Source of the DNA: Isoetes taiwanensis
Lineage: Eukaryota > Streptophyta > Lycopodiopsida > Isoetales > Isoetaceae
DNA length: 64,000 nt
Assembly (NCBI GenBank): GCA_021234155.1
Contig: JAJEKV010000059.1
Span: 2,682,182-2,746,181 of the forward strand
Direction of reading: 5' to 3'
Shown here piece by piece: positions 2,474 to 53,544 of the stretch. Under the pieces are notes generated by a model that saw only the letters and a program-made list of their open reading frames with translations, did not search any database and was not told where the DNA came from. The first letter of the stretch is position 1, and each line of letters starts with the position of its first letter. The position numbers and the translations under genes are program-made.

Positions 2474-3143
2474 CTCTAAAAGTTATGATGTGTCCAATAT
2501 CTCTTCGGGATTGGGCACGTGTCTCTTCAGTAGACTCACGTGGAAGACATCATGGATCTTAAGATGCACTGGCAATTCCAACTTGTAGGCTTGATTGCCT
2601 ACTCTTTGAACTATTTTGAAAGGCCCTGCCCATCTTGGCGCAAGCTTCTTGCAATTGCCAATTCTCAATTTGGCTTGCTTCACCTTAATCTTTAGCCAGA
2701 CATTATCTCCAACTTGAAATTCTCTTACCGTTCTGTGCTTGTCGGCGATGCTCTTTTGACGGCTTCTTGCGGCCAACAAATATCCTCTTACTTCATCAAC
2801 AAGCTGCTCCATTTCTGCCAACATCTTTTGGGATACTTCCACTTTTGACACTGGATTGTGCCAAGTATCAGGAGTCAAACAATGGTATCCATAATTGATC
2901 ATGAATGGGGACATTTGCGAAGACTCCTGCTTTGTGCTATTATACGCAAATTCCACCAAGTGGAGATACTCTTCCCATTTGAATTGCTTGTTTCAAACAT
3001 AATTTCTGAGCATATCCTCAATTATTCTCTTTGTCCTTTCTGTTTGCCCATCCGTCTGAGGATGATATGCTGTGCTCATGGAGAGCTTCGTCTGAATTGT
3101 TGCAAAAAGATCTTGCCAAAAGGCGCTCATAAACTTGGGATCT
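2474..3143 (-). pseudogene. Integrase C-terminal part (catalytic C end and GPF module)
   Basis: The [18 protein letters not shown] and EDML motifs of the integrase catalytic domain are readable, followed by VEFAYNS and the C-terminal GPY/F-type module (LAPRWAGPFKIVQRV, then HDVFHVSLLK). This part is out of frame with the upstream polymerase ORF. The break at about 3,143-3,150 looks like extra AT dinucleotides in an ATATA run right after the second catalytic aspartate (NSD). Integrase inserts the cDNA into the genome; this copy would not make a working one. Confidence 0.85.
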
Positions 3144-5111
3144 CTATATATCAGAGTTTATCTCCCTAGGCATGCCATGCAATCTAAAGATCTCCTTTAC
3201 AAATAGGGCTGCTGCATCCAATGCCGTATCTGTGGTCTTGCATGGAATAAAATAAGCCATTTTTGATAGCTTATCTACTACAACCATCAATGCATCTTTA
3301 CCCCTTTGGGTTCTAGGAAGGCCCGTGATAAAGTCCATGCTCACCACTTCCCATTTGGCATTCGGGACCGCCAAAGGTTCCAAGGCACCTGGAATGCGAA
3401 GCTGCTCTGCTTTTGTCTGTTGGCATATCTGGCACTCACGGATATACCTTGCTATATCTTTCTTCATTCCCGACCAATAATAGATACTTCTTATTTTGAA
3501 GTAGGTTTTCATGAATCCAGCATGACCTGCTATTGGGCTGCTATGTGTATCGTGGAGGATCAACTTCCTTACTCCTGACGATTCTAGTACACAAAGCTTA
3601 TTCTTATGATAAAGAAGCTTACCTTCCTTTTTATAATTCTTGAAGGTCTCCCTTTCTGCATCCGTTCTTGCCTCCTTAGAGAGGCTTGCCCAAACTTCAC
3701 TAAATTCCTTATATGTTGGCAAGGTTTCCTCAATCTTTCCGCCAAATTCACTAACTAGCGTGGAGATTGCATTACAATGAACTCTTGTAATCAATGGATG
3801 CCTTGAGAGCGCATCCGCTACTTGATTCGACTTTCCTGGCTTATAAATGATCTCCAATTCATATTCTTCCAGGAATTCCATCCACCTTCTTTGCCTTAGG
3901 TTAAGGTGAGGTTGGGTGAACACATACTGAAGACTCTGGTGATCTGTCTCAAGCTTAAACTTCCTGCCCAATAAATAGTGCCTCCAGATTCTCAATGCCC
4001 TTACTACAGCCAACAACTCTTGGTCATGTGTTGGGTAGCGTGTTTCGGCATCGTTCATTTTCCTTGAGTCATATGCCACGACTCTTCCCTCTTGCATGAG
4101 AACTGCTCCTGTAGCTATGCGACTTGCATCTGTTGCTACAAGCTTATCCTTATCTGGGGCTGGCAAAACTAGCACTGGTGCTGTTATCAGAGCCTCCTTT
4201 AGCTTTTCGAAAGCTGCTTGCGCCTTCTTGCACCAATGTTCTTGCCAATCTTTGACCTTCCCAGACTTGGTAAGGTCGGTTAGCGGGGCTGCTATCTTTG
4301 CAAAATACTTGACAAACCTTCTATAAAATCCCGCCAATCCTAGAAAGCTCCTGACTTCATGGATATTCCTTGGGATCGGCCACTTAATTATTGCTTCTAT
4401 CTTGCAGGGATCTGTTGCTATCCCGTCTACTGATATGACATAGCCCAAATACTCGATCATAAAGGTCGCAAAATGGCACTTGGAGCGCTTTGCATACAAT
4501 TTGTGCCTTCTTAACTTGTCAAATGCCTTTTTCAAATGCATGACATGCTCTTCCAAAGACTTGCTATAGACCAAGATGTCATCAAAGAACACTATTATAA
4601 AGGAGTCTAAAAACTCGCGGAAGACATCATTCATCAAGCGCATAAAAGTTGCTGGGGCATTAGATAACCCAAATGGCATAACTGTGAACTCATAATGCCC
4701 ATATCTGGTTCTGAATGTTGTCTTGTGAATGTCTTGCTCCTTAATCCTTATCTGATGGTATCCTGACCTTAGGTCAATCTTTGAGAAGATTTTTGCTCCC
4801 TGCAACTGATCCATCAAGTCATCTGATCTTGGCAGAGCATATTTGTTCTTAATGGTGTGCTTATTAATTATAAGCTGTCTATAATCTACGCACATCCTTA
4901 AGCTACCATCCTTTTTCTTGACAAAAAGAATGGGTGCCCCAAATGGGGAGACACTAGGTCTGATGGACCCTAGGTCTAGCAAATCTTGCAACTGTTTCTT
5001 AAGCTCTACCAATTCCTGGCTGGACATCCTATAGGGTGCCTTGTTGGTTGGCTTTGTTCCAGGTTCCAATGCTATTTCACACTCTACTCCCCTGTGGGGC
5101 GGAAGTTGCAT
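3144..5111 (-). CDS. Ty3 Pol: reverse transcriptase, RNase H, integrase N-terminal part
   Basis: A 655-residue open frame. In order: an RT palm with [29 protein letters not shown] and the catalytic box [11 protein letters not shown] (canonical YVDD replaced by FFDD, both aspartates kept); an RNase H with [24 protein letters not shown] and ADALSRHP; then the integrase HHCC zinc-binding region (H near THSS and [13 protein letters not shown]) and MDFITGLP with the first catalytic aspartate. The frame ends at TAG after NSDI because of the frameshift described for the next segment. It replicates the element RNA into cDNA in virus-like particles. The start residue is arbitrary, since Pol is normally cleaved from a polyprotein and the upstream protease is in a different local frame. 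Confidence 0.95.
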
Positions 5112-5387: not shown

Positions 5388-6435
5388 TCCTATCTTCCAA
5401 TGTTCATTACCTCTGCTTTGCATTCCGCTTCTGCAACGGTTTTCGGGTCGATGGCCCTGACTATCTTCCGCAGCTCATCATTTAGGCCTGCTATATAACT
5501 GTCCACTGCTTCTCGTTCTGTTATCCTTGGAACATACAATCTCAGCTTCATGAGTTCCTCGGTGTATTTCTGAATTGAACGGTTCCCTTGTTGTAGCCTA
5601 TAGAACTGCTGTGCCATATCACTCTTGTGTTATTTGGGTACGTAATGCTTCTTGAAAGCCTTGGCGAACTTTTTAAACTTGCACGTGTTCCTGCTTATGC
5701 CATGAGTTTTTGCGTACCCCTTCCACCAGATCCTGGGTGCTCCGGTCAAATTGGTTGTTGCTACCGTGGCCATATCTCTGTCCTTCATACCATAAACTTT
5801 ACCATACTCTTCCATCTCGTCTAACCACGCCTCAGCCTCCATCCCCGATCTACTGGTTCCGGAAAATAGGGCCATCTTCTTTGCCCTATATATATTGCTA
5901 ATGCAGAGTCCACCTTTTTTTGATAAAGTGCCTTGGACTTGCCATGGCATCTCCTTTGATCTGCTTCCCCTTCATCTGAATCTGAGCTTGTGTCCGAGTC
6001 TGAATCTGTTGATGACTGGGAACTAACAGCTGGGTTTGAGCTGGGGGACCTTCGCCTCTTGCGTTTCTTGTCCTTCTTCTTATCATGTCCCCAGGCCTGC
6101 CTTTGTGGTTCCTCATTCTTGTTAGCAGATGCCGCTAAAAGAGCCTTGATTTGGCTCAGATCTGTCTTTATCTGAGATATCTTCTCCTCCGGTGTTAGGA
6201 CTCTTTCTTGTTCAAATAGCCGGCGAGGTGCAAACTGCCTTGGATGGGTCCTCTCTACGGGGATTTCTTGATCATACTGATCGGGATACCTAACTGCACA
6301 TATTGCATTTATTTTTAAATTATGAGCAACATTAGTTGTGTTCCTTGTTATTGCTGATATTTGCTTCATACTACAATAAGATATGAATAGATATGAGCAA
6401 AAAGAAATAAACACAACTTTATTTAATATCCGCAT
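5388..6435 (-). pseudogene. Gag capsid region, broken
   Basis: The core at 5,388-5,950 has the plant retrotransposon gag pattern: EAEAWLDEMEEYG, GAPRIWWKGYA, FKKHYVP, then AQQFYRLQQG and LRLYVPRITE. An in-frame TAA interrupts it at about 5,630. Upstream, 5,821-6,435 encodes a Lys/Arg- and Ser/Asp-rich segment (DKKKDKKRKRRRSPSS then a run of SDSD-type residues) joined to the core by a frameshift near 5,900. No CCHC knuckle remains. Gag would form the virus-like particle. Confidence 0.8.
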
Positions 6436-6468: not shown

Positions 6469-7933
6469 TTAATGTCGTTTATCTGGATGGTCCTCCAGAT
6501 ATTTCCTAACCCGGGCCATGTCTAGAGGCTGTCTTAGGTTCCTGATAATGTTGGAGGCAGCCCCTCCTCTAAAAGCAGCCTCAATCTGCTCTTGCCCCTG
6601 GTTAGTCACATGAGCCGCTGTCACAACTAATCGGCCCGTTCTTACGTGCGGTATGGCGAAGTCGAGAAGACTCAAGGCAACTGATCTTTTCACTAGGATG
6701 ATATGGTCTGCATTTGCTGGCAATCTGGAGTGTCCCCCAAATCCTGATAGGGCTATGAGTGAAAAGACCGCTTCCTCCCCCCTTGGGCTAGATTGTCGGT
6801 GGAGCACCGCTATTCTTCCATCGGTGAGCAGTGGCAGGTAGTACTTTAAAGCACTAGTCCTATCACCCTTCTTTTCTGCTCCTCTCGATGCAGCCCTATG
6901 CCGACCTGCAAACTCATCTATGGGGACTTGGATCAACTCCCGGTCGTCCTCCACCCTAGTTGCTCGTGATGTCAGTTTTGCTGGAGCCACATGATGAGAT
7001 CTATCATCCTGTCTGCTTGATGAAGATTCTCCCCTTGATATATTGGTTGTCTTTCCCCTTATGCCCATCCGCTCTTGCAATGCTAGGAACTCTTCTTCGG
7101 AAGGGAGCTGAGCTTGTTCCATTATCTGTCTAAGGTGCCCATACGCTTCAATATCCGAAGTTGGTCGGCCCCTATAGGACTCCACTTCTGCTATCTCTGC
7201 AGGGAAATCTTGTGTCTCCCGGTCGATGAAGCCCTCTAGATCCTGTTGTCGAAGGAGGTGGAGGAGCTCGTCTTGCCTATAGCCCCTCTCCTGGCATTGG
7301 GGTAAGTTCTTGATGTCGTTTAAGAAGAGGTAAGCCTCCCCTTGAAGCATAATTGGGGTAAGACTAGTTATACCTAGCCCTAATGGTGGGGCTATCCTTT
7401 GTTGGTGCAGCTCATTATCAAGTGTTGCCTCTTCCTCTTCAGCTAATCTCTGCTCCTCTTCAAGGTCCATTTCCTGTTCTTCATCCTCTTTCTTCACTTT
7501 CTGATGCATCTTCCAACATGAGGATGTCCTGCCTTTGCCCTTGGGTTGCAAGGGGTTCGACTGCCAAGGGTTGAATGGAGGGTTGCCCTACTTCAACTTG
7601 GGTCCTATAGTTCATGAAGATTGCCAAGGCAGTTGTGAAAGAGAAGTACCCTACTCTATTTACAGACATGGCCATGTAGTCAGGCATACGAGTGACTTGA
7701 CTGCTAAGGTATCTAGCAATGTTAGGTACATGGCTCAGGGCTGCTGAGAGGGCTTGCTTAGGTACAAAGTATCCTGTGCATGGGGGTACTTCTGTCAAGT
7801 AGGGTCCTACCTTGGCTTGGAATTCATCAAGGACCTGCTGATAGAACGGTGTTGCTGCTAGGGTCGCCTCTAAGTCAAACTCATGACAGAAGACTGCAAA
7901 GACTGACTCAATGTCTACCTCAGTGACCATCAC
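6469..7933 (-). pseudogene. Accessory ORF upstream of gag, unknown function
   Basis: Two overlapping frames (7,481-7,933 and 6,469-7,551) look like one roughly 480-residue protein with a frameshift near 7,500-7,550. The N-terminal part is a folded-looking segment (VFAVFCHEFDLEATLAATPF, YFVPKQALSAALSHV). The middle is a highly acidic helix (QEMDLEEEQRLAEEEEA). The C-terminal part ends FAIPHVRTGRLVVTAAHV, RKYLEDHPDKRH and TAA. I recognise no family. It is in the same orientation as gag and pol and lies between the leader hairpins and gag, so it is an extra gene of the element rather than part of the usual gag-pol. It could be an extended gag N-terminus, but a TAA and a gap separate it from gag. 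Confidence 0.6.
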
Positions 7934-8227
7934 CTGAAGGTAGTTGGTGCCATGATAGAGTTGGAGTAGAGGATGACAAATAGAAGGTTGAACGTCTTAG
8001 GGAGCTGAAAGATCGCCTCAGAGCAAGAGCAAAGATTGCAAGGTGGAAATGAGAAGGTTTGAGGTCCTATTTATAGAGAAATCTAGGTGGCAAATTTCTA
8101 GGGTTTCGTGCTTAAGACATTTTTGGGTACTAAAAGGATGAAATCTTACTATTTTGGAGAGTTGGATCTACTTAGCAGGGTCTTAGGTTGAGATTTGGGT
8201 TACTAGGGACCAAATTTGGGGCAAATG

Positions 8228-8290
8228 CTCACACTGTGCGCGGGATGCCTAGTTGAGATTCTCAATTAGGCACCTGGCGCATAGTGTGAG
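8228..8290. repeat. Leader hairpin repeat, copy A (63 bp)
   Basis: A long imperfect inverted repeat that starts CTCACACTGTGCGC and ends GCGCATAGTGTGAG, with an inner stem GCCTA-TTGAGA / TCTCAA-TAGGC around a one-base centre. Three full copies and one half copy of this 63-bp unit occur in the Ty3 leader. Pairing is retained although the copies differ in sequence. Confidence 0.85.
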
Positions 8291-8430
8291 TAAATGGGCT
8301 CATTTTGGGGTGAAAAGCTGCTCAAATTCAACAAGTAAGTAGTCCATTCTATCCTACTCGAAGAGTTGGATCGACTGGTATACTCACTTGTCAAGTTTGG
8401 AGCTGTTTTGATTGAGTTTGGGGGCAAATA

Positions 8431-8493
8431 CTCACACTATGTGCGGGACGCCTAGTTGGGATTCTCAATTAGGCGTCTGGCGCACAGTGTGAG
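8431..8493. repeat. Leader hairpin repeat, copy B (63 bp)
   Basis: Same unit as copy A: it begins CTCACACTATGTGCG and ends CGCACAGTGTGAG, with the inner arms GCCTAGTTGGGA and CTCAATTAGGC. It lies just downstream (in element sense) of the histone-like ORF. Confidence 0.85.
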
Positions 8494-8636
8494 TAAATGG
8501 TCCAATTTACTCCACACAAGCCAGATTAACATGATCTAAACTATGGAACCTACTAAAATCAAGGCAATTACATACTATGACTACCAATTGACACAAAAAA
8601 AAAATACTTTTATATTAAGGAAAATTTAAGGTACAT

Positions 8637-9862
8637 TTAGGGTTTCTCAGAGGGGTCCCTCCTAATATCCCTTGCCAGTCTCATGTCCTTGGGCATTAGT
8701 GTCACCCTCTTGGCATGTACTGCACATGCTCTGGCATCTTCAAATTCTCTGACAATTTTCTGCTCTGCTGCTTCTTGCAAAGCTAGAAGACTCCCATCTG
8801 TGACCCTCATGTCCTTCCTAAATTCCTGAATAACTTCCCTGCAGAGCCTGACAAATGGGGCTCTGGGTATCAACATCCCATAGCTGTTCTAAAAATGCCT
8901 AAGCTCATGAGCCACTCTTGAAATCCTGCTTCTTCCCTTGAAGGGCTTCTTTGATGGCTCAGGTTTCTGTGGTGGGGGTTTTAGTGTGTCCTTTCTTTTG
9001 GGTACTCCCCCTGCTACCACCCTTGGCCTATGCTTCTGGTAATACTTATCATAGGCCTGATACATCTTCATAAATTCCTTGTAATCTTTCAGCTGCTGCT
9101 TGTATTCAATATCTTGCTTCAGCTGATAAGATTCTCTCTGTGGTTTCTTACTCTTCTTGGAGTTCGTATCATCCTTCTTCTCTGGCCATACCGGGTAAGG
9201 TGGGGGTCCCGGTTCTTGAACCTCATCTCCTGCTGCATCTTTCTCTGTTGCACCCGAGGTGCCTTCTCCTGGTTCTCGTGGAACTCTCACATCATCATCT
9301 TCTATATCAGATGATGAAGTTAGTGGCTCGTCTGAGCCCTCTCTCTAATGACAACCTTAGGATTCGGGGTTGTCTTGGTCTTCCTTTGGGGCTTGTCCAG
9401 TTGTGGCTTCTTACCTTTGGCAGCTGCCTTTTTCCTGGCTGCTTCCTCAGCTGCAAGCTGGGCTTCTTCCTCTGCTTTCTTCTTGGCTTCTGCCTCAGCT
9501 GCCAATTTCTTCTTCAACTCCCTATTCTTCTTCTTGAGAGATTGCTTATCTTGCTTATTCTTTGTCCTTCGTTCTTCCTCCCTCTTTGCTTCCTCCTCTT
9601 CTTTTCTCTTTGCTTCCTCCTCTTCTCCTCTCTTGGCCTCCTCCTGCGCTTTCCTTGCCTTCTCTTCGGCCCTCCTCGCCTTCTTGGCTGCGCGCTTGGC
9701 CTCCTTTTCTGCGGCTTTATTTGCAGCTTTCTTCTCTTCTAGCTTTCTTTTCTTGGCCTCCTTCTTGGCCTGTGCCTCTTCATCAGGAAGAGGTTCTTGG
9801 GGCGTTTCCTGTTCATCTGGGTTAGCTTGTTGCTCCGGGTTCTTGGGCTGATCCTCCTCCAT
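8637..9862 (-). pseudogene. Histone H3-like ORF with a long charged N-terminal tail, carried by the Ty3 element
   Basis: The C-terminal segment (8,637 to about 8,930) aligns along the whole histone H3 fold: alpha-N SRVAHELRHF, then [14 protein letters not shown] (H3 has LIRKLPFQRLVREI), [17 protein letters not shown] (H3 MALQEA), [21 protein letters not shown] (H3 [20 protein letters not shown]) and ARDIRRD, then TAA. Loop 1 has the same length as in H3, without the insertion typical of CENH3. The tail is about 320 residues: a Lys/Glu/Ala coiled coil (9,320-9,862), then an acidic and Pro-rich stretch with PPPYPVWPEKKDD. One in-frame TAG (8,889-8,891) stands where H3 has Gln in its RRYQ motif, and an AG-repeat slip near 9,355 shifts the tail frame. 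The start ATG at 9,862 is the best candidate; an overlapping frame begins at 9,948. It has the same orientation as gag-pol. Confidence 0.85.
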
Positions 9863-9935: not shown

Positions 9936-9973
9936 TTGGGATTCTCAATTAGGCGCCTGGTGCATAGTGTGAG
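9936..9973. repeat. Leader hairpin repeat, half copy C
   Basis: Only the right half of the 63-bp hairpin unit is present (TTGGGATTCTCAATTAGGCG to AGTGTGAG). It abuts the 5' edge of the histone-like ORF, so the junction of the ORF block falls exactly at the hairpin tip. This suggests a rearrangement breakpoint in the loop. Confidence 0.75.
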
Positions 9974-10112
9974 TAATTGGCTCATTTTAAGGTTAGGTTT
10001 AATTAGTTTTGGTGAACTAACATGCATTCCTAGGTCATTTTTATGTGTAGTTCTACCTATAACATTACTTTTCCTAAACTAACTAACCTTCTAGCCAAAC
10101 AAGGGGCAATTA

Positions 10113-10175
10113 CTCACACTGTGCACAGGGCGCCTAGTTGGGAATGCCAATTAGGAGTCTGGCGCACAGTGTAAG
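10113..10175. repeat. Leader hairpin repeat, copy D (63 bp)
   Basis: Starts CTCACACTGTGCACAGGG and ends GGCGCACAGTGTAAG, with the inner arms CGCCTAGTTGG and CCAATTAGG. It lies between the primer-binding site and the histone-like ORF. The surrounding 9,974-10,385 shows no ORF and is the untranslated leader. Confidence 0.8.
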
Positions 10176-10385
10176 CAAAGTGCTCACAGTCAGCTAGTTG
10201 CACCCAGTTTCCCCCCTTTCATGCTAACTTGACTACTGCTAGCTACTCAAATCTCCCTATGGGGAAAAATTTTTTTCCAATTTTGAAGTCTCACGCCTAC
10301 TTTCCCAGAACTTCGGATATACTTCTAGAATGTTAGTCCTACAGGGATAATGATCAGTGCTTGATCTTGGTGTGCCAAGATCATT

Positions 10386-10398: not shown

Positions 10399-12994
10399 TG
10401 TGACGTCCCCAGCTAGTATACGAGCCCACACTCGTATATAGACTGGAGCTTTCCCCCAAGCTGAGCTACTCCCAACCTGAGGCCATCTGCCTGACATCTA
10501 TCCCTTAACGTGAGGTCAAGGCACGGATGGGAAGAGCAGACGTGTCATTCCCCCGTCTCCCTCGGAGCCTATCTATAGCGGAAGCAAACAAACATAAGAA
10601 CCATAACATCATATACAATATACATTCCACCCCAAAGGGGTGACATCATAACATAGCATCTGATCATCCATCCATCCTAACATCATCTAGCAAGAGCTCC
10701 TACCCCATAGCTCAGACTCGTAGAGGATGACTGACAGCTCGGGGCACCAGAAGCAATGCAGACGGAGTTCATGGCACATGACGTTGGCTGGCATAGAGAA
10801 CATGGCTAAAGGGTACCACATCCATCCACCCCTCCTGTGCACACTTTGCAAATAGACTGAAAAGTGTCGGGGACATGACCGTAGCCTGCCGGGGATATAG
10901 CCGAAAGAGCTACTCCTGGGTTGCATCTCCCCAGGCCCGATGAGGCAGGAAGGTTGCCCTTCCTGGAGGCATCATGCCGATGATCAGGGTGTTTTTTAGT
11001 GGCCCCGGCGGGCCAGTTGGCCACACATTCATATTTTTCGAAAAATAGTCGGCCACGCCGGAGTAGGATGCATTCGCACCATAACCAAATGGGGGTGGCC
11101 AGTTCAAAACACCAATTTATCGAATTTACTTCATAAGTGGCCAATTTGATATTTGCCCAATCTTCAGACCCGTAGGGCGTGGCCATTTCAAAATACTATG
11201 CGCAATAGAAATTTGCTAGGGTGGCCATTTAAACCATGGAATAATTTTATGCTTTTAGGATTGTGGCCAGGCTCTATATAGGCCAATTGTATGGATAGGA
11301 TTTCGCCACTTGTAGGGTAGCAAAATTAGCTTAATGTTTAGCCCTAAATTGGTGAAGGCATTCTAGACAGATAGTATCCTGACTAGATTCTTATGCTATC
11401 TATTCTACCTTCGTCAACCTTCATTTTCTCATTTCAATATATCGGCCAGTTTGCCAATGTAGTATTTTGGTATATTGTATATCTACTCGATGGCATTTCT
11501 TCATTTCGATTCTTTCATTTCGACCTTATTGATCATATTATACTTTACTTGTAACTTGTGTGTTATATAGGTGACTATCGATAACTTGAGAGCCTTGGCA
11601 CATATTGATTTGATAGCCTTTGCAAAATGAGACTATCATTTTCTTTCCTAACCACAAAGAAAACTTATGGTGCAAAACAAGTTTGAGAAGGCTCTAAAAT
11701 AATAGATGAGCTATCATGATCTCAATGATCAAGAGGGCTCCTCAACAAATATTGACCTAGTTACCATCTTTACATGTAGGATATACAGGTGTAGCCAATT
11801 GAATTTTTTGAAAAAAAAAATAGTTCCATGGTTTCACCATTTAAGTTACAACCCTTCGGTGTAACAATTACAAAAAGGGCCAGGCCAAGCTACGGTTAGC
11901 AATTTATCCAAAGCAAGTAGTGGCCAATATTTTATGCCCCATCAAATATGTAGGTAGGTTAAAAAATACCCTGCCGATGATGGGGTACTAGAGGGCCACC
12001 GCCCATCTATGGCTACTACCGCCTATGATGACACACCACCTCAAAACGGTGCATGCCTGAGACTACCCCCAGTCTCACCCCGCGGGGTATCCCATGGCTA
12101 GCATCACCCATAAGCGGCACCAAGCCTATGCCCTGCCCTCTCGCGGTGGCAGGCCATTGGGCCTAGTCTCTTCCCATCATTAGACATCTCCCCCATTCTC
12201 AACCGGTCTCGCCCCCTTCACCCACAGTCAGGTGGGCTCTTGTGCACAGGCCGAATCTACTTTTGATCTAACAGAGCATCTAGGATCATGCTACTAGGCT
12301 GGGGCTCTACCCCCCTTCCCCAAACAAGGAGATATCACAAAATAACAACAAAGAACATAATCCATCACGAAACAAAATAGAATAACAGCTACTTCTATCT
12401 ACCATAGAACTACTCCTATCATCTAGAAGGGGTTCATTCTTAGAGGCTTCTATCTGGAGATCTAGGAAGGATCTAAGAATGAAACAAAATGCTAGATCGC
12501 CTCAATGCTAGCCTGTAAACTGGCATTGGGGCTCGAATCGACTCCATACCTTCATCCTGGTTGGTGCCCATCTCCAAAATGTGTCGAACTGCCTGAAAGC
12601 TGCTGCTACTACTCTAAATGATGCTGTAAACCAGCTTCGCCCTCCAAAAGAGTCAGATTTGTATGCTCAGGCACAACAAACAGAGTAAGGAAGCCCTAAT
12701 GCAATGAAACTTGGCATTAGAGTTTCTTGACTCTTTTGTGTGACGAATTTTAGGGCTTTGTGCCCTAAAGGATCCCATTGGTCAATTGCCACATGGCAAT
12801 GGGGCATTGGCAAGTTAATGTTTCATAGGTTAAGGTTCCCTAGATGCAAATATATGATATTTGCATCTCCATGGTATGGTTGTATATGCTTACAACCATA
12901 TGTGGGTCTCATGTACGTGGCTTCTGGACTACGTACTAGTGACACACATGTATAATATACCTATTCATAGCGTATATTATACTGGAACGTCACA
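10399..12994 (-). repeat. 5' LTR of the Ty3 element, with a nested hAT-like insertion
   Basis: Bounded on the plus strand by TGTGACG (10,399) and CGTCACA (12,994), a 7-bp terminal inverted repeat of the TG...CA type. Without the 989-bp insertion and its duplicated target the LTR is about 1.6 kb. The promoter and polyadenylation signal of the element should lie here, but I could not assign a TATA box with confidence. Confidence 0.92.
10985..11973. mobile_element. Non-autonomous hAT-like element, 989 bp
   Basis: Its ends are CAGGGTGTTTTTTA and the inverted TAAAAAATACCCTG. It is flanked by an exact 8-bp duplication CCGATGAT (10,977-10,984 and 11,974-11,981). An 8-bp duplication with CAGGG ends is diagnostic of hAT-type transposition. 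The other LTR is uninterrupted at the same point. The interior has no transposase, only AT-rich sequence with scattered GGCCA motifs near the ends. Confidence 0.93.
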
Positions 12995-15157
12995 GCAGTT
13001 CTCAAAAATATCCATCAGTTCGAGGAGACTTGTCACGTTCTCCCTTTTGAGCTTGGCAGAGAAAATTCCGAAGAATGCATCTATATCATCATGAGTGGGT
13101 AAAAGCATGATAAAGGTGTCCACTTTTGGAACCTGCCAAAGTACATACACTAGGTACTCCAAAAACTGGTACTTTCTTTTTTCTTTCTCATGAAAATCAG
13201 TTTAAAAAATTCAAAATAAATGTCTATGACACATTGAGATTTGATGCTATGTGAAACACAAATCTAATAGAGACTAAAAAAGTTGCATCAACCCTTAAAA
13301 TCAATACTTATTTAGACATTACATAGTTCCAAAAGTACTCAGTGCTGGGTACCTTTTTAGGTACTTTTTTAGTCCCTAAAAAGTACTTTTTAAGGGACAC
13401 TTTAACATGCTTTTACCCGAGTGTGCCCAACCATCATGAATCCCACTTTCACAATCTTGAAGACTCCCACTGCAGTCAAGTATGACATTGCCCCAAACAT
13501 CCATCTATTCTTGTTTTCTTTCCAGCAGTTGTCCAACTGAACACATAGCTCCTCTGGCAGTTGTTTCTCATTTATGGGGAACTCATCCCAAGTCCTCCTT
13601 GCTTCTTTCAACACCTTCGATGTGAGCTCATTTATCTGCCTTTGATTGAGCTGCTAGTCATCCATCAAAGCATCAAAGATGGGGGCTGAGGGAGAAAACC
13701 TCCTCCCTCTATAGAGCCCCTCTCAAGTGTTCTCAAGCACTTGAAAATAGAGCTCACATGGATATTCGGATCGTCTCTCCATAGATCAAGCACAATGACC
13801 ATATGTGCCAGTTCCATGGCCATGAGTGAGGACACCTGCCAAGCTTACTTTCATTTGAAAAGCATTCTGGCATCGCTTGGGCAAAGGGTCTAGCTTTGGC
13901 AAGAAAGTCTTCTGCTGGTCCATCTTATCGTGTATTATGCACAAGTATTTGTCAGGTTGCATTTGTGAAAAGGTTCGCCATTGCCAATATAGTTGTCTAC
14001 ATGATACTTAGTCTGATTGGTGATCTACCATTTGCTCTCTGATTGCCATCCTTTCTTTCTCTATTGCAGTTGATGCAAGTGTATCCTTCAGCTGAATGCA
14101 GGTGTTGCACTTCGAGAAAGGCATTTGTTGCAAGACTACCACGTCCGAGAGTGAGTTTTCCATATCCTGCTAAATGTTGATTGTGAAAGTGTTCGACCTC
14201 CTATAGTTTCTAGAATAGCATTCATCTCTTTGAGGCACTCTTTCTGGATGTAATGTTGTGGCAACACCCTCTGCACTAGTTGGACACCATGCTCGTTCAC
14301 CTTGGATCTATGTGGCATAGATTGGGACATGTACCTGACAAAGCTCTCAAACACTGCAATGGCCCTCAAAGTGTTTGCCCTAGGCTTCAAAATCATGTAA
14401 TTGCCATACTGGAACAACTGATGCCCTCTTTTAACTTGTTCCCAGTATCTGTAAAATGATGTCTTGCTAAGACCAAGAATCCATCTTATTGCATTCATGC
14501 ATACCTTATGTTCTCTCAACAGATAAAGTAATATTCCTGTGTCTTTAGATGTGCTGCATTTCTATACAATGAGCATACGAAATTAATCATGTCCTTTTGG
14601 AGCTGACCAATGTACTGTGACCTTATGTCAACTAGCTCATCCACACTATATTTAATTGTGCAATCTAGACTGCAGCACTCCTGTCCCCTCACTGCCTCTA
14701 AGTTTTCCTTAGTTGCTGCTATGCTTCCTTTCCTTTTCAAGTATTTGGCACTTCTAGGCCTCTTAGGCACTTGTGGTTGTCTCTTATAAAAACAGTAGCG
14801 CCTCTTCCTTGTAATCAGAGGATGCACATCCATTACCATGTCTTCTGCATGGCCAGAGTTGTTCCTTGGGGTATCTTGAGATGGGCCTTCTAGGTGGAGA
14901 CCTTTCTTATCTTTGATATGTTTAATTGGCCATCTCAGTTGAGTTTGGAACTCTAGAAATCCCGAGCACACAATGCACTCACTGGAGGCCCCCTGGGACA
15001 TAATTGTGTCAAGCTGGATAAGGAGTTTCCCAACACCAACACCCAAGTGGTCCTCTCCAAGCCTCTCGTCATTGACACTATCGGATGGATCCACGGCCGT
15101 TATGATACCCTCTGCAAAAGCCTCCCCATTGCATGGGTGCACCAATAAGCATTCCAT
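12995..15157 (-). pseudogene. DUF7869-like transposase gene, decayed and interrupted
   Basis: The minus strand encodes, in order, VHPCNGEAFAEGIITAVDPS, cysteine pairs (CIVCSGF, CCSLDC), GLSKTSFYRYWEQ, RVLPQHYIQKECL, CNTCIQLK, IIHDKMDQ, then WDEFP, QLDNCWKENKNRWMFGAMSY, VGFMMVGHT and DDIDAFFG. This is the pattern of a widespread transposon-derived family with an RNase H-like core. I assign the DUF7869-like name from memory of its QLDNC...ENK and HTHxDID motifs. Stops and frameshifts occur between 13,620 and 14,140. A MITE splits the conserved HT-H motif and the Ty3 LTR truncates the C-terminus. It is closely similar to the copy at 33.3-34.9 kb. Confidence 0.7.
13097..13418. mobile_element. MITE, 322 bp, GGGTAAAAGC termini
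   Basis: Perfect outer inverted repeats GGGTAAAAGCATG extend, with minor changes, through TAAAG-GTGTCC. They are flanked by the 4-bp direct repeat GAGT (13,093-13,096 and 13,419-13,422). The interior is AT-rich with several GTACTTTTT motifs and no ORF. It is inserted exactly in the conserved HT-HxDID motif of the host transposase gene, whose reading continues on both sides, so the boundaries are well defined. Confidence 0.88.
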
Positions 15158-16552: not shown

Positions 16553-17095
16553 TTGTCGGGTGCAAGGGGCCATTCTCAACTCGCGAGTCGGGAAGGCCCA
16601 ATCTATCTAGCAGCAGGTCGAGAATCCCCTAATTCTCCACCATCTGCAAGCATTCTCGACTCGCGATGCCCCCATACTGCAACCCAATCTGCATTTTCGA
16701 CTCGCGAGTCGAGAATGCCTCAAATCTCTCACCATCTGCATGCATTCTCGACTCGCAAGTCGAGAATGCACCCATATTGCAACTCAAGACTGCATTCTCG
16801 ACTCATGAGCCGGGAATCCCCCACTTCTCTCACCATCTCGAACCATTCTCAACCGGCATTCTCGACTAGCGAGCCGATAATGCCCCACTCAATCACCATT
16901 TGCCAGCATTCTCGACTGGCGAGTCGAGAATGCCCCCTCTCTCACCATCTTCCAGGATTCTCGACTCGCCAGTCGAGAATGCCCCAGTCTCTCGCCGTCT
17001 GCCAGCATTCTCGACTCTAGAGTCGAGAATGCCCGATTCTCTCATCATCTACCAGCATTCTTGACTCGCCAATCGAGAATGCCCCTTTCATGTGA
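16553..17095. repeat. Minisatellite built on a 24-bp palindrome (about 50-bp period)
   Basis: About ten units, each centred on a palindrome whose half-site is ATTCTCGACTCG followed by its reverse complement. Starts are near 16,571, 16,651, 16,692, 16,743, 16,793, 16,857, 16,907, 16,955, 17,005 and 17,055. Spacers are variants of CCTCTCTCACCATCTGCCAG. The outer GACTC/GAGTC arms are better conserved than the central four bases (CGCG, CGCA, ATGA, AGCG, GGCG, CGCC, TAGA). The ORFs through it are repeat-encoded and not genes. Confidence 0.9.
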
Positions 17096-17124
17096 TCCAA
17101 CAGGGCTCATGCGATGTGATCCAA

Positions 17125-18045
17125 CAGGGCTCATGCGAGTCGAGAACTGGTGGTCCAGTGATGCATTCCACACTCGCTGCCCACACGTGCCTTCCCCCCG
17201 TCTGAGTTGAGCTCCTTCGAACCATAGGCCTCGAATGTTCCGAAGGGGATCGGCTCAGAGGGGGCAAAGGCATGTAAGTGCATCGAATGGTGGATGAATC
17301 TTTCCCAAGGCCCATGTGACTGAGGTCTGTAGATGCTCTTGGTTATTCTCGCCTCCTGAGTCGAGAATAGGTCGTCCAGTGATGCAGTCCACACTCGCTG
17401 CCCACACATGCCTTCCTGCCATCTAAGTTGAGCTCCTTCGAACCATAGGCATCGAATATTCCAAAGGGGATCGGCTCATACGGGGCGATGACATGTAGGT
17501 ATATCGAATGGTGGATGAATCTTTCCAAGGCCCCTGTGCCCGAGGTCTATAGATGCTCCTCCTTATTCTCGACTCGCGAGTCGAGAATAGGTCGTCCAGT
17601 GATGCATTCCAGACTCGCTTCCCACTCATGCCTACTTCCCGTATAAGTTGAGCTCCTTCGAACCATAGGCATCGAATGTTCCAAAGGGGATCTTCTCAGA
17701 CGGCAAGAAGGCATATAGGTGTCCAATGCCCCTGTGCCTAAGGTCTATAGATGGTCCTCCTTATTCTCGACTCGCGAGTCGAGAATAGATCATCCAGTGA
17801 TGCATTCCACATTCGCTTCCCACTCATGCCTACTTCCCGTCTTAGAGGAGCTCCTTCAAACCATAGGCGTCGAATGTTCCGAAGGGGATCTTCTCAAACA
17901 GGAAGAAGGCATGTAGGTGTATTGAATGGTGGATGAATCCTTCCGAACGCCCCTGTGCCTGAGTAGATGGTCCTGGTTATTCTCGACTCGCGAGTCGAGA
18001 AAACTACATGGAGTCATGCATTCCACACTCCCTACCCACACATGC
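17125..18045. repeat. Longer repeat array carrying the same palindrome (about 200-220-bp period)
   Basis: Four to five units contain CCAGTGATGCATTCCA, GAGCTCCTTCGAACCATAGG and GGTGGATGAATCTTTCC, each followed by the same 24-bp palindrome near 17,345, 17,565, 17,762 and 17,977, with a half-palindrome near 17,131. The units have diverged by point changes and small deletions. No protein is plausible in any frame. Confidence 0.88.
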
Positions 18046-18324
18046 CTTCCCTTGCCGGCACCTCTAGCTTGCTTTTTGGACTAAAGACCGAAGCAAGAGG
18101 GAGCTTTCTCCGGGCTCTTTCTAGATGGAATGACTTAACTAAAATTCGACCTGAACATGCCTCAGCCTCGTTGATTGCATGTTCCCTTGCTGAGCACGTT
18201 CTAGCACCGCCACAATGACAATGCTGAAATACGCTCAACAAGGAAACAAGCAGTCGAACAGACTCCAAGCAGATCTCGAAGTAGACCCCCTAAACCCGTT
18301 TAAAAAGTTCTAACTAATATGGAA

Positions 18325-18640
18325 GGATAGACTCACCTCTTTCTTAAGTATTCTTTGGGCCATTGTATAACAGATCCTGCAGCCTTCCGGATGGTCGTTG
18401 CTTCTTCGGTTGGCCTTATAAGCAAAGCATCTCCATTTATAACTTGTGTTATGGCGATCCTTGAGTATCCTTTCTCCATTGCACTGCAGTGGAGCAGGCC
18501 AGTATCCTCTAGCTCGTCCCCGATTGCAACCTTCGCCCCATCCGCAAGCAGCAGATTGACTAGCATATCCAAAACCTCAAGTTACACAACGTTATGATCT
18601 TGCTTCATAATCAAAGAAGAGCTTACCGCTTCTTCGCACC
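18325..18640 (-). pseudogene. DUF8039-like fragment
   Basis: The minus strand encodes DMLVNLLLADGAKVAIGDEL, LLHCSAMEKGYSRIAITQV and AAGSVIQWPKEYL. The last part resembles the WP-x-x-L end of DUF8039, a domain of plant transposon-associated proteins. A possible splice donor (GCGGTAAGC) lies at about 18,625 and an acceptor near 18,582, so this may be one exon of a larger gene. No other exon was found. The family assignment is tentative. Confidence 0.4.
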
Positions 18641-18654
18641 ATATCTAGAAATCT

Positions 18655-19182
18655 GTTGAAGGAAAAGAACGATCCTCCAAGGCCCCTCACAGACTGGGGA
18701 TTTGAAGTGGGTGTCTGGTCATGTATGGCGAAGCGGAATGTACTCGGTGTTTGTTCTCGGGGTGATTGGAGTCCCTCTACTGAAGTGCAAGTTTATCTGG
18801 GGCCAAGAAAAGGCAGACTTTGTGAGGGACCTGGACACGTCTGTCACAAAAGGCACGGAGATAATGGTAAAAAAATTGGAAAGGGTTTATGAGGCCTACC
18901 AGGGATATGGTAAACATAACACTGTTATTATAGATGACAGCGCCTACAAGTGTTACCATAACTCGGACAAACACGATCCTGGCTAAGAGCTATCGACCAG
19001 AAGAATATGAAATAGATACTTGGCTCGCATACGACCTCGTTCCAGTGTTGGCTGAGGCCAGGTTTTCCATTCTGGTGGCCGATGTAATCAGGAGGTATCC
19101 GAATCTCGAGGAGATTGACCAGCATCGCATCTCCTTCATGAAAGCCACGGACGAGAAATTTTATGGTGATAAGGATACTTGA
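18655..19182 (+). pseudogene. FCP1/NLI-interacting-factor-like phosphatase (HAD family), C-terminal half, frameshifted
   Basis: Three frames carry consecutive parts of the domain: DWGFEVGVWSCMAKRNV (18,690-18,740), then CKFIWGQEKADFV and NTVIIDDSAYKCYHNSDKH (18,790-18,975), then SYRPEEYEIDTWLAYDL with DVIRRYP (18,990-19,110). TVIIDDS-YK and the following acidic loop are characteristic of the NIF/FCP1-type aspartate phosphatases that act on RNA polymerase II CTD-like substrates. The N-terminal DxDxT catalytic motif is absent. Shifts near 18,740-18,760 and 18,960 make this a pseudogene. It is embedded between two palindrome arrays. Confidence 0.72.
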
Positions 19183-19244
19183 ATGTAATTATTTTGTAAC
19201 ATTGTGGAATATGTAGATGAACTGTATCATTTGTGACATATGAA

Positions 19245-19470
19245 TTACTTGTATAATGATGTGGCATGGTCTTTCTCGACTCGCGAGTCGAGAAATGAAC
19301 CATTTGTATGGAATGAATGATCTTCAGCGTTTATGGTATAGGAATTACATGCACAAAGTTGTGGCATGGTGTTTCTCGACTCGCGAGTCGGGAAATGAAC
19401 CATTTGTATGGAATGAATGACTTCAACGTCTATCGTATTTGAAATTGTTTGTTCGATCTGCGTGACTAAT
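19245..19470. repeat. Two-unit repeat (about 103 bp) with the same palindrome
   Basis: Two copies of a unit containing GTGGCATGGT, a TTTCTCGACTCG palindrome (near 19,271 and 19,373) and GAACCATTTGTATGGAATGA. The flanks differ from those of the two upstream arrays, so the palindrome has been combined with a third unrelated unit. Confidence 0.85.
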
Positions 19471-19737: not shown

Positions 19738-21134
19738 CTGGCTGTTTTCTAACAGCCTCACAATTATTTCTTTGCTTTTAATACCTTGAAGTTGTGTCCA
19801 AGGCACAATGCCCATACTTTTTTGTTTTGCTTCGGAATTCTTCTTTGGTTTCTTGCTCGTGCTGCTCTGTTGCTCCTTTAATTCTGATTCTTTACATGCA
19901 AAAAATTCTTTCTTGCAAGTCCCAGGCCTAAAAAAGGTAATTGGAATACTTAGTAAAGCAACCAACTGAAGAAGCACACATTTGCAGCTCTAATGATCAC
20001 GGTATGAATTTATACCAAAAGGGCTTGCGGCATAAATTTATACTGACAGGGTTTGCGGTATAAGTTTATACCGATAAGGCTTGAGGTATTAACTTACATC
20101 GATAGAGCTTGCGGTATAAATTTATACCGCAAGCCTCATCGGTATAAATTTACACCGCAAGCGTCAAAGGTATAAATTCATACCGCAAAGCCTCCGACGG
20201 TATAAATTAACTGTCGAGCCTCTACATTAAAAAATGAGTACCGTCGAGCCTCGATGGTATAAATTTATACCGTCGAGCCTCTACAGTAAAAAAATTAGTA
20301 CCGTCGAGCCTCGATGGTATAAATTTATACCGCTTTAAAGTCTTCCCTATTCAGGCTCTTGAATTCAAGAAACTCCCTGTGCATGGATCGAATTTTATCT
20401 ATTACTCTCATCTTTAATCCAAAGTCATTGTCAAGGTTATGGCTAACTGCAATGACTTTTGCTTCTTCATCAGTAAGACCTACATAGATGTGGGTTTCCA
20501 CTGTTTTCTAAATCTCATTTCTTTTTTCTTCTTTTGATAACTCCTTTCTAGCCTTGTAACTGTGTGTGTCACCAAGCAGGTAATAGGTATAGTCTTCAAA
20601 ATCTGCCTTCTTGTATTGGCTCAATAACTGTATTTGATTTTTGTCTACCATGACCACAAAAGGCGAGACATGAACATGCAAGTTTCTATGCATTCTCTGC
20701 TTTAGTATGGGCACATGTGCTGCGTACAGTTTTCTCACCTGTAGCACCCTAACCCCGTCTTCATTTTTAGGTGGCCTTTTAATGGTGCTTATACTTAACG
20801 AGATTGTTTGCTTATGTAGCTTTGTCTTGTTAATCTTTTTGAGAATGGCACTTGATCTGTCAGCAGGCTTAACTACTATGTCAGCTCCAGGCGCTTTGCT
20901 AGCTGCTTCCATGGATTCCTCTAATGTCAAAGCTTTCATTTTTTTGGGCTTCTTCGCAGGTGGTTCTGTGGTCAAGACAAGCTTCTAGCTGCAGTCATCA
21001 CCGGCACCTCTTCCTCGTACTCTCGTTCTGGGGAGTTTTCTTCTAAGTTCTCTTTTTCAAGAGGGTACCACAATCCTTTCACCACCCTTGGGTCTTCACA
21101 AAAAACTACAGGCTGGATAATGTCAATAATATCC
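19738..21134 (-). pseudogene. ParB-like/DNA-methyltransferase paralogue, truncated
   Basis: Paralogue of the gene at 23.8-32.1 kb. A first exon (from about 21,134, after a TGCAG acceptor) encodes WYPLEKENLEENSPEREYEE. A ParB-like part follows: LQVRKLYAAHVPILKQRM, PFVVMVDKNQ, LGDTHSYKARKEL, then YVGLTDEEAKVIAVSHNLDN. The last exon (about 19,738-19,930) has GIVPWTQLQGIKSKE. A TAG (20,508-20,510) replaces the Trp found in the other copy, a frameshift lies near 20,985, and the methyltransferase half is missing: homology stops at about 19,740. It is non-functional. A palindrome array occupies the intron at 20.0-20.34 kb. Confidence 0.78.
20000..20338. repeat. Array of GGTATAAATTTATACC palindromes
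   Basis: About eight exact or near-exact copies of the palindrome CGGTATAAATTTATACCG (or its halves), linked by GCAAGCCTC/GTCGAGCCTC words. The first part has a 30-35-bp spacing. The second has a roughly 62-bp unit with CTACAGTAAAAAAATTAG. It lies in an intron position of the ParB-like pseudogene, immediately after a coding segment ending EDFKA. Confidence 0.88.
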
Positions 21135-23832: not shown

Positions 23833-24408
23833 TTAATAATCAATAGGTTCTTCTTCATCAGTTCCATTCTTCTCTTTCTCCTTTTCAAGGCCAATGTTTA
23901 CCAAAGGAATTGTTGATGAAGCCCTGGGAGTCTCTTCAAGAATTGTAATAGCAGGATCAAGCTCTGCAAAAACAATCTTCTCATCAGGCCTACCACTAGG
24001 TGGTGGCTGAATCTCAGAGAAAGTTTCTGTTAGAGTTCCATTATAGCTTTTGTCGCCTAACTCTTGATTTTCATCATGCAAGGACTCAAAAGAACTTATT
24101 CTTGATTTTATGAAACCAACATTTTCTTGATCAATATCAACACAGATAACGTTTCGTCCTTTCTTAAGGGCACAGATAGCAGTTGTTCCTGATCCAGAAA
24201 AAGCATCCAGCACCCAGTCACCTGGTCTTGAAAACCAAGTAATAAGCTTAGAAATTAACTCCTGGGGCTTTTGATAATGTGACACTATTGTCCCTGTCTC
24301 TGAGGATCTTTCAAATTTTGAAGCATAGCTGGATAACAAAACACGTTGCTTGGTGGTTGAGTTTCATCTGTTGTATTGTAATGCTGCATACTCCTTTTAC
24401 CATCAAGA
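23833..24408 (-). CDS. ParB-like/DNA-methyltransferase gene, last exon (methyltransferase C-terminal half)
   Basis: This exon carries the S-adenosylmethionine-binding end of a beta-class amino-methyltransferase: HYQKPQELISKLITWFSRPG (motif X region), DWVLDAFSGSGTTAICALKK (motif I, bacterial consensus D-P-F-x-G-S-G-T-T) and NVICVDID (motif II). An acidic tail ending EEEPIDY and TAA follows. The acceptor TATAG at 24,409-24,413 joins in frame to the exon at 29.5-29.6 kb. A frame break near 24,343 lies in a T-run; upstream of it the frame reads HYNTTDETQPPSNVF. In bacteria such enzymes methylate adenine N6 or cytosine N4. The specificity here is unknown. Confidence 0.82.
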
Positions 24409-31205: not shown

Positions 31206-32141
31206 CTTTCCACTTCTGAAAGCTAGTTGAAAATAGTTGTCAAACTTTTTGAAGCATGGATGGGTAACAGGTCACTATCATACTGAAGGCAACATTCTGT
31301 TACACAAGTTTCCTTGAGCTTTTGAAGAAGCGGGCCATTCTTTCTGAAGTCTTCACCGTAGCTTTGCTCAAAGTTTATGACTTTCCGATGCATAAAAAGT
31401 ATCTGATCAATGAAACTCATTTGGAGGCGATACTCATTATCAACATTATGAGATACGACTAAAACTTCTAAAACTTTTGCTTCTTCATCAGTTAGACCAA
31501 CATAAACCTTGGCTTCTACCACTTTCCAAGCAGGATTTTTGTTGTCTTCTTTCATTAGTTCCTTCCTTGCTTTATAGTTGTGTGTTCCACCCACGACACA
31601 ATATCGATAGTACTCAAAGCCAGCCTTATTGTACTCTCTTAGAGATGTACATTGATTTGGGTCAACCATAACAATCAGAGGAGTGACTACTGCTTCTTGA
31701 TTAGCCCTCATTCTATCTTTTAAAATGTCAATGTGAGAAGCATACAACTTTCTAACTTGCAAAGGTCTTTGTCCAGAAGCATCTTTAGGAGGTCTTTTGA
31801 TTGTAGCTGTGGAGAGCCTCATCGTGTCAACAACACGTTTGGTAGCATTGATTTGGTTCAGCAGCTTTGTGCTCCTATCAACTTCCTTACTTTTAAGTAC
31901 ACATCCAGGAGCTCTTTTCTTGTCCTTGGGCACTTCTGAACCCTCAATGCGTTGTACCTTCCTCTTCCTTTGCGAAAAAAATGTCTTTAACTTGCTTTCT
32001 TTTGTTTCTAAGCAAGTCCTTATCTAGTGCTCTAGCTAATCCCCCACCATCTTCTTCTTCCTCTTCCTCTTCCTCTTCCTCTTCCTCTTCCTCTTCCTCT
32101 TCCTCTTCCTCTTCCTCTTCCTCTTCCTCTTCCTCTTCTTC
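31206..32141 (-). CDS. ParB-like/DNA-methyltransferase gene, ParB-like exon
   Basis: After a poly-Glu tract and a basic segment (LLRNKRKQVKDIF, later KDKKRAPG), the protein has the layout of a ParB/Srx-type domain: LQVRKLYASHIDILKDRM, PLIVMVDPNQ, YRYCVVGGTHNYKARKEL (bacterial ParB has G-x-R-R-x-x-A), YVGLTDEEAKVLEVLVVSHN and NEYRLQMSFIDQI. In bacteria and phages ParB-like domains bind DNA or nucleotide and are often joined to DNA methylases, which fits the downstream exons. Frame breaks near 31,978 (T7 run) and 31,235 (A5 run) are both in homopolymers. The donor GTTTGC follows FQLAFRSGK. The true start codon is not identified; an upstream exon is likely. Confidence 0.68.
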
Positions 32142-48151: not shown

Positions 48152-48859
48152 TCATTCCATGTCTAGCCATACATCGACTAGATCATGAATATTGAATTCC
48201 TGAACCCTGTCCCTCAAACTTGAAGACAGCCAGCCATCCAAATCCTTGGCTGGGTATGTTGTGTGGTCTAGCAACACCATTGCCAGTGCCTCGCAGTCTT
48301 CAGCCTCCCTCTTCAACAGACTCCTGAAAACCGGTTTGAGATTGTTGTGAGTCTAAAGCTCATCTCTTTTTATCAGCCTCCGCAGCGCCTTTGCCCTATA
48401 AATGCGGGCTTTCAGATACATCATGGTCTCCATCATGTCTCCTCGTTCTAGTAAAAGCCCCTCGTTCTGCTCTCTTTCTTTTCCCTCCATACGGAGCTTA
48501 AGAAGCCGATTCCTCATCTCATTCAAATTCTTGGCCTGGAGTTCGTTCCGGACCTCATGCTGCAGCGCATTCGCCTCGCCCAGTAGAAATGCAGCTTCGC
48601 GGCTTACCCTAACCCCCGGGGGATTCAGTAGTGTTTGTAGTATAAGACACGTGCGTGCTATAAAGGGAGGTTTTTTTACCCTTTAAGTATTTGTATACTT
48701 ACCATTAGGGGTTTTTTCACCATTATCTGAGGCAAAATATATACTTTAGGGGTTAAATTAGCTTTCAAAGATCAGTATATTAGGGATGTTTTTGGCCAGC
48801 CTACGAACGCAGATGGTTTCCCCCTTTATTACTAAGTGCATCCCCCGGGCCCCAACCAT
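48152..48859 (-). pseudogene. Small coiled-coil protein gene, left member of a divergent paralogous pair
   Basis: The frame runs from GTT at 48,613 to TGA at 48,152 (154 codons). Its ATG (48,857-48,859) is separated from the body by a MITE that duplicated the bases across the start codon. The protein includes SREAAFLLGEANALQHEVRN, RLLKLRMEGKEREQNEGL, ALRRLIKRDEL, NNLKPVFRSLL and TYPAKDLDGWL, and ends LVDVWLDME. A TAG at 48,353-48,355 stands exactly where the paralogue at 53.2-57.9 kb has Trp. ANxLQxEV, RRLxxxDE, KPxF and DLDxW are shared between the two. Function unknown. The pair was divergently transcribed from a short common upstream region. Confidence 0.72.
48615..48849. mobile_element. 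CCCGGGGGATTC MITE, copy 2 (235 bp)
   Basis: Termini CCCGGGGGATTCAG and GCATCCCCCGGG, flanked by CCCTAACC (48,607-48,614) and CCCCAACC (48,850-48,857), an 8-bp duplication with one change. It is inserted directly behind the start codon of the small coiled-coil gene. It shares the internal word GAACGCAGATGG with copy 3. Confidence 0.88.
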
Positions 48860-49065
48860 TCCGACAAGGGCAGAAGACAAAGGCAGAGATGGGGATGAAG
48901 AAGACGGAGCAAGAAGGGAAGAGGCTGCGACAAGATAGAAATGACCGCAATACATATACTCTGGGGATCTAAATAATGCAAAATCCTATGACCCTTCGGA
49001 AGGGTTAGTGGCTCGAAATATGTTCGTGGCTCGAAATAATAATAATAATAATATTTAATTATCAT

Positions 49066-53003: not shown

Positions 53004-53052
53004 ACGAAAACCTAAGGCGGCAGACGTTGGTGACTCAGACGTTAGCGAGAGT

Positions 53053-53488: not shown

Positions 53489-53544
53489 AACAAATTTGGC
53501 ACTTTCTACTAGGCGCTTAGTTCGGCGGCGCTTAACTGTTTGCG

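Follow-up and report, generated by a model that had tools for sequence, protein, structure and literature searches.

A histone H3-like first open reading frame in a Ty3/Gypsy chromovirus class of the quillwort Isoetes taiwanensis

Introduction

Why would an LTR retrotransposon carry a histone, and could such a protein act on chromatin? The question is raised by a 64-kb stretch of the Isoetes taiwanensis genome (hereafter the window), in which a sequence-only reading placed an open reading frame (ORF) ending in a complete histone H3 fold between the 5' LTR and gag of a chromodomain Ty3 element. The genome paper on this quillwort describes an assembly of 1658.30 Mb (204 scaffolds and 909 contigs) with many PPR genes and reports that Gypsy elements account for 10.7% of it; the word "histone" is absent from the paper's main text (PMC8566536). 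Here we describe the element, its relatives across the genome, the conservation of the H3-like protein, and the roles that it may have.

Results

The element in the window

On its minus strand the window holds a Ty3/Gypsy element longer than 12 kb, to which all the element features below belong unless stated otherwise. The two LTRs are 96.0% identical over 1023 bp and 99.4% identical over 350 bp (blastn, 5' against 3'). The 5' LTR spans 10635–12994 (blastn blocks 10635–10984 and 11972–12994 against 1–1363) and includes 987 bases (10985–11971) without a counterpart in the 3' LTR, which lies at 1–1363 (blastn) and is cut by the window start. Between them, in minus-strand order, are ORF1 (9862–8640), ORF2 (7933–6469), gag, the reverse transcriptase, RNase H and integrase domains, an SH3 domain, and a chromodomain. 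The gag region (5630–6435) is divided between two frames (6435–5821 and 5950–5630) and is 57% identical to that of a relative, L019; its matches to Retrotrans_gag (E=0.0022) and Ty3_capsid (E=0.013) are weak and both fall below Pfam's cut-off. Pol (3144–5111) matches the Pfam families RVT_1 (2.2e-35), RT_RNaseH (1.5e-33), Integrase_H2C2 (6.5e-20), and rve (3.7e-5). It is followed by the integrase C-terminal SH3 domain (2483–2959; SH3_Tf2-1, 4.3e-23) and by the chromodomain (2246–2482; PF00385, E=8.7e-10), preceded by an in-frame stop in the window copy; a chromodomain is also found in the relative L013 (PF00385, 6.3e-8). With two LTRs, the order gag to RT-RNase H-integrase, and a chromodomain at the integrase C-terminus, the element is a Ty3/Gypsy chromovirus, and the earlier placement of the H3-like ORF between the 5' LTR and gag of a chromodomain Ty3 element is borne out.

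ORF2 is broken in the window. Its first part (7481–7933) resembles, by eye, the ORF that follows ORF1 in L046 and has no significant match to a profile of ORF2s from two element lineages, A and B (described below). The second part (6469–7551) has no Pfam match and corresponds to an unknown protein that the A and B lineages share with the window (63 bits and E=3.4e-21 against a profile of seven A/B-type ORF2s, in a search of only three sequences).

MITE-like, strong palindromes of ~90 bp flank the H3 ORF at 8215–8305, 8418–8508, and 10100–10190 (no strand assigned), the last of them upstream of the ORF1 remnant and accompanied by a half copy at 9946–9973; the fold z values of the three are -7.6, -7.4, and -3.3. 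Other parts of the window carry further mobile-looking sequences. An ORF with an N6/N4 DNA methylase domain (23833–24339, minus strand; PF01555, E=2.6e-16), a family that is mainly bacterial, lies near other mobile-looking ORFs, and two ORFs that are related to each other (20508–20975 and 31223–31933, minus strand), neither of which matches Pfam, look ParB-like by eye; these and the methylase ORF are possibly parts of one mobile element. One protein appears, by eye, in two copies (14136–15157 and 33360–34838, minus strand), the longer with a weak match to DUF7869 (E=6e-4), and the two resemble components of a DNA transposon. Repeats around the palindrome CTCGACTCGCGAGTCGAG, partly in tandem with a spacing of 198–221 bp, occupy 16597–19416, and LINE-type ORFs are present on both strands at 48832–57575, one of them matching RVT_1 (E=6.3e-21).

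An H3 fold in the first ORF

The interval 8918–8640 (minus strand) matches the histone family PF00125 with E=1.9e-22 when an in-frame TAG is taken as Q, and in the PDB the best sequence matches of this H3 piece are to chains of H3, with E-values as low as 5.7e-25. We modelled window positions 8646–9308 with AlphaFold from an alignment of 13 rows. The predicted helices lie at residues 58–93, 131–141, 149–163, 171–198, and 206–216, of which the last four correspond to helices N, 1, 2, and 3 in H3 order. Overall confidence is given by a pLDDT of 70.2 and a pTM of 0.36, and the mean pLDDT of ten-residue blocks is 59 at helix N and 78–93 across the remaining fold. The top 50 Foldseek matches in the PDB are all nucleosome or H3-complex chains, 39–53% identical to the model. 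Pfam, PDB sequences, the model, and Foldseek agree on an H3 fold that includes helix N, and the profile search and structure prediction that had been proposed as checks on the sequence-only reading both support it; loop 1 is of canonical length, as had been stated, and has no insertion.

The window copy itself is decayed. Its upstream charged part, rich in K, E, and A (9320–9862), occupies the position of the charged linker of intact relatives, matches L033 in tblastx, and is in a different frame from the H3-bearing part (8640–9311), which runs from a linker helix into the fold (~8918–8640) and ends at a stop at 8639–8637. In addition to the frameshift between the two parts, a TAG interrupts helix N (8891–8889), the start is lost, and the tail tip found in relatives is missing. 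The original description was therefore correct as to place, strand, and fold, and wrong in assuming a single complete ORF.

Outside this genome, two protein-database searches returned 99 and 10 matches, which are histone-domain proteins. A metagenome protein (P0102) was considered as a relative sharing the tail and was rejected, as its match outside the histone is weak and gapped. None of six pattern matches in a scan of viral contigs was confirmed.

Related elements across the genome

We searched the host genome (1,658,258,908 bases in 1110 contigs) with PF00125. This gave 8705 first-look candidates, a number that should not be read as copies, and the 150 that were scored are all above the cut-off, five of them holding a stop. 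Fifteen of the 150 span profile positions 2–122 with E-values no higher than 1.9e-45 and resemble host H3 genes; most of the others are without the tail part. Twenty loci were fetched from the non-host-like matches, picked mostly for long frames. The fold is present in all 20 (tblastn; 61–83% identical to canonical H3 over the aligned stretch) and lies inside an open frame of 444–494 codons in 16. Downstream of it, in order, are ORF2 (19 of 20 loci), ORF3 (16 of 20), and gag-pol (19 of 20), counts that include the self-matches of L019 and L009, from which the queries came. A second search, with the H3 piece of the window, gave 10256 candidates (again not a copy count). Among the 150 scored, the 149 others are 50–62% identical to the window and mostly span linker and fold, and ~100 of the 150 are stop-free (counted by eye). 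Seven relatives tested against PF00125 gave E-values from 2.7e-42 to 6.7e-22 (L019, L024, L029, L025, L039, L046, and a piece of L048).

Since loci picked by their histone are biased towards having one, we added a sample picked by pol. Of 44604 candidates 68 were scored, 12 of the 67 others than the window were picked by rank, and 2.4 kb was fetched from each at the expected place. Eight of these 12 intervals contain the H3 fold; no H3 was found in the interval searched in the other four, nor in that of L037, the closest pol sibling of the window. (A PPR-bearing ORF lies near L037; PPR_2, 7.5e-12.) Three places occur in both the H3-piece and the pol list, with H3 and pol on one strand and H3 ~5 kb upstream (by eye). 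The H3-like protein is accordingly a standard component of this class of Ty3 chromoviruses: the fold is present in all 20 histone-picked loci, 19 of them followed by gag-pol, and in 8 of 12 pol-picked ones. A single-copy artefact, which would have undone the sequence-only reading, or a host gene beside an element is ruled out, as relatives were recovered through the histone profile, the H3 piece, pol, and the tail tip alike, with the H3 ORF at the same place in many elements.

Element types and exchange of modules

The proteins fall into several types. In types A (e.g. L019), B (e.g. L024), and C (L025), an N-terminal domain of ~200 residues is followed by a charged linker and the fold, which is 83–89% identical to host H3 (19 of the 20 loci; L027 was omitted as cut short). 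The window belongs to the D/E types, with a fold 48–66% identical to host H3 in 16 sequences (L029–L036, L039, L041, L046, L048, L055, and L059–L061). Broken folds, e.g. L038, L040, L043, and L045, were omitted from this set; L038, L043, and L045 have out-of-frame stretches.

The gag-pol pieces of L023, L024, and L025 are mostly 76–95% like those of L019, but ORF1 and ORF2 only 40–49%, so front ORFs and gag-pol seem, on these identities, to have been exchanged between element lineages as modules. L013 is without ORF2 and ORF3, gag-pol following directly after ORF1 (2780–3046, in the orientation of the H3 strand). Its junctions are not sharp, and the gap may stem from a deletion or from reverse transcription of a spliced RNA.

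The H3 tail tip

In seven of eight D-type loci, which were chosen by H3 similarity, ORF1 starts with Met-ARTKQTARK, that is, H3 residues 1–9 including K4 and K9; V then replaces S10, and the frame is unbroken to the fold. The eighth locus, L033, has an altered tip. The exact tip is also found in six of the eight H3-positive pol-sampled loci, followed by P or R, and two of these six (L039 and L046) have an unbroken frame from tip to fold. Residues 1–9 of the H3 tail ARTKQTARKS are thus exact in 13 of 16 loci, and S10 is not kept. The ARTK tip is absent from types A, B, and C.

A degenerate codon pattern for the tip has 1051 matches genome-wide (516 and 535 by strand), versus 0 for a reversed control. 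Host H3 genes are included in this number, and 5 of 100 places listed coincide with one by eye. Every eighth of the 100 listed places was fetched (n=13). None of the 13 is a canonical H3, and in 12 the fold match starts 0.83–1.12 kb downstream (none in L052); all 13 have an interrupted frame between tip and fold. The intact protein of the window lineage is thus a stretched H3, composed of Met-ARTKQTARK, ~300 charged residues, and the H3 fold, and most copies are decayed.

Selection on the protein

Across the 13 exact-tip loci, 10 of the 30 bases differ (two at first, none at second, and eight at third codon positions). As these loci are listed for having the exact residues, the fair figure for conservation of the tip is the six of eight from the pol sample. 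For the longer regions we computed NG86 dN/dS and report medians over pairs with 0<dS<1.5. In the fold, dN/dS is 0.047 in type A (36 pairs), 0.016 in B (10 pairs), and 0.082 in D (15 pairs), values that are lowered by the choice of A and B by histone score and of D by likeness to the H3 of the window. It is 0.13 (A) and 0.11 (B) in the N-terminal domain, 0.21 (A) and 0.12 (B) in the linker, and 0.16 for tip plus linker in D. The pol-sampled folds have a median of 0.087 and a highest value of 0.31 (8 of 28 pairs usable), and the tip-sampled folds are more weakly constrained (median 0.316, highest 1.01, 15 of 16 below 1; 16 of 66 pairs usable). When pol and tip loci are pooled, decayed copies included, the median is 0.22 and 50 of 51 values are below 1 (51 of 190 pairs usable); four pol-sampled folds pooled have a pN/pS of 0.28, with dS saturated.

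The low values in the fold indicate an H3 gene under purifying selection. A captured chromatin gene is therefore seen at a constant place in many copies and under purifying selection. Both ends of the protein are conserved and the middle evolves faster, which is the pattern expected of a working H3.

Contact residues and origin of the fold

All 16 D/E sequences keep R72, R83, C110, H113, K115, R116, V117, T118, D123, L126, and I130, and 15 keep R69. We take R72, R83, K115–T118, C110, H113, D123, L126, and I130 to be DNA and H3-H3' contacts. Other positions are changed (in loop 1, F84 to V in 15 of 16 and Q85 to T in 15 of 16; elsewhere R63 to P in 14 of 16), and R40, R42, K56, K79, and R129 are largely lost. 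The kept contacts favour a D/E fold that pairs with H4, makes the H3-H3' contact, and binds DNA, with an altered surface; given the changed and lost residues, its nucleosomes would differ from those of the host.

A tree built from 45 rows and 98 columns places types A, B, and C in one group (97/91) within the H3 clade that includes host H3. The D/E sequences group together on long branches (100/99), where the tree program gives a warning of long-branch joining, and the plant CENH3s fall separately with one Lolium H3-like protein (99/98; clade of five rows). The comparison with host H3 and plant CENH3 that the sequence-only reading had suggested thus leaves the element H3s outside the plant CENH3 clade. 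Constraining all 29 element H3s to one clade gives a p-AU of 0.041, borderline and affected by long branches, so that origin by one capture or by two is a borderline matter on this alignment.

Discussion

Proposed role and alternatives

A large element family with its own H3, and with the exact start of the H3 tail in one lineage, suggests an element that uses its own histone to act on chromatin. We consider it somewhat probable that a Ty3/Gypsy chromovirus class captured host H3 as its ORF1, and that the long-tailed variant acts on chromatin together with host H4; for ORF1 itself, the most likely function is that of a long-tailed H3 variant partnered with host H4. In this account a host H3 gene was captured as the first ORF, upstream of ORF2, ORF3, and gag-pol. 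ORF1 would be produced as an H3 variant with a tail lengthened by ~300 charged residues, would pair with host H4 through the conserved fold, and could be brought into the nucleus by H3-H4 chaperones. There it may become part of tetramers or nucleosomes that form on element cDNA, new insertions, or target chromatin, where the long tail would show K4 and K9 to chromatin proteins of the host and possibly of the element, and the displayed tip might steer integration or blunt silencing. A simple loop in which integrase reads K9 methylation on the element's own histone is not favoured. By our reading, with cage positions that we placed by HP1, the integrase chromodomain has one of the three aromatic cage residues, which makes such reading doubtful.

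A more specific proposal can be held only tentatively. The element would work through its own histone, with stretched H3 in nucleosomes or tetramers on element DNA and the ARTKQTARK tip writing or withholding chromatin state, and the host would share its DNA packaging with a very large parasite family.

Conservation of the tip could also be understood if ORF1 were never deposited. Tip and fold would then be bait for K9 and K4 writers, readers, and H3-H4 chaperones, and silencing would be weakened. The tip is exact in six of eight H3-positive pol-sampled loci though the following residues differ, many tail enzymes and readers bind ARTKQTARK without S10, and a long charged arm from tip to fold requires no nucleosome. 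Yet H3-H3' and DNA contact residues, needless for bait, are kept in 16 of 16 D/E sequences, the constraint covers the whole fold, and types A, B, and C keep the fold without the tip. We regard such a decoy as unlikely, if worth keeping in mind.

The distribution of the fold, present in A, B, C, and D/E while the tip is confined to D/E, would also fit a carrier, whose binding to host H4 and to H3-H4 chaperones or importins would serve nuclear entry or cDNA compaction alone, with no marking of chromatin. Ty3 elements require nuclear entry, and the linkers are highly charged. Because it leaves the exact K4, K9, and their neighbours in D/E unexplained, we think this rather improbable.

A CENH3 borne by the element and guiding integration to centromeres is very improbable. 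CRM-type chromoviruses do target centromeres, and the D/E fold is diverged (48–66% identical to host H3), but loop 1 has the canonical length without an insertion, and the element H3s stand apart from the clade of plant CENH3s other than the host's own (99/98); loop 1 length and tree thus give CENH3 identity no support. A passive passenger, an H3 gene of host origin picked up by the element and kept with no function, is hardly credible: copies are often decayed, and interruptions between tip and fold are seen in the window copy and in all 13 tip-sampled loci, but dN/dS in the fold is below 1 in 50 of 51 usable pol- or tip-sampled pairs (median 0.22) and the exact tip recurs in several subtypes with differing next residues, so that fold and tip already contradict it.

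Relation to known systems

The element resembles plant Ty3/Gypsy chromoviruses in its LTRs, its gag-pol order, and an integrase with SH3 and chromodomain, and differs from them in extra ORFs between the 5' LTR and gag (three in most of the fetched A, B, and C loci), the first of which is H3. Compared with canonical plant H3, the protein has the same fold, most of the contact residues checked, and, in D/E, tail residues 1–9, but ~300 charged residues lie between tip and fold, the tail is replaced from S10 onwards, and types A, B, and C have another N-terminal domain in place of the tip. Virus-encoded histones are another case of mobile genomes with a core histone of their own, and include a bracovirus H4 with an extended tail and the histones of Marseillevirus and Medusavirus. 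Those come from viruses of insects or protists, unlike the present one, and we know of none in which an LTR retrotransposon encodes an H3 bearing a long linker.

Among the published cases considered here, the nearest precedent comes from algal retrotransposons, in which DNA methyltransferases were captured by Gypsy and DIRS elements (KnitGypsy-Dnmt3 and SymbioDIRS-Dnmt3), with a Ka/Ks below 0.2 for KnitGypsy-Dnmt3 (PMC5890265). Our case is similar in that a host chromatin gene was taken up, multiplied, and kept under purifying selection, and differs from KnitGypsy-Dnmt3 in that the enzyme there lies inside the Pol ORF and here a structural histone forms a separate first ORF upstream of gag (PMC5890265). 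Unlike the captured Dnmt3, one lineage here keeps the H3 tail tip. A limited literature search found no retrotransposon-encoded H3, and such a protein is likely new in print.

Implications

If ORF1 is expressed, the host would receive a core histone whose form the element, and not the host, has selected, and one could test directly whether nucleosome composition is a means by which transposons fight or steer silencing. As a natural H3 in which tip and fold are kept and the mid-tail is replaced, ORF1 would also bear on the role of each part of the H3 tail. In a lycophyte as rich in Gypsy elements as this one (10.7% of the assembly, as reported in the genome paper; PMC8566536), an element-encoded H3 could matter genome-wide.
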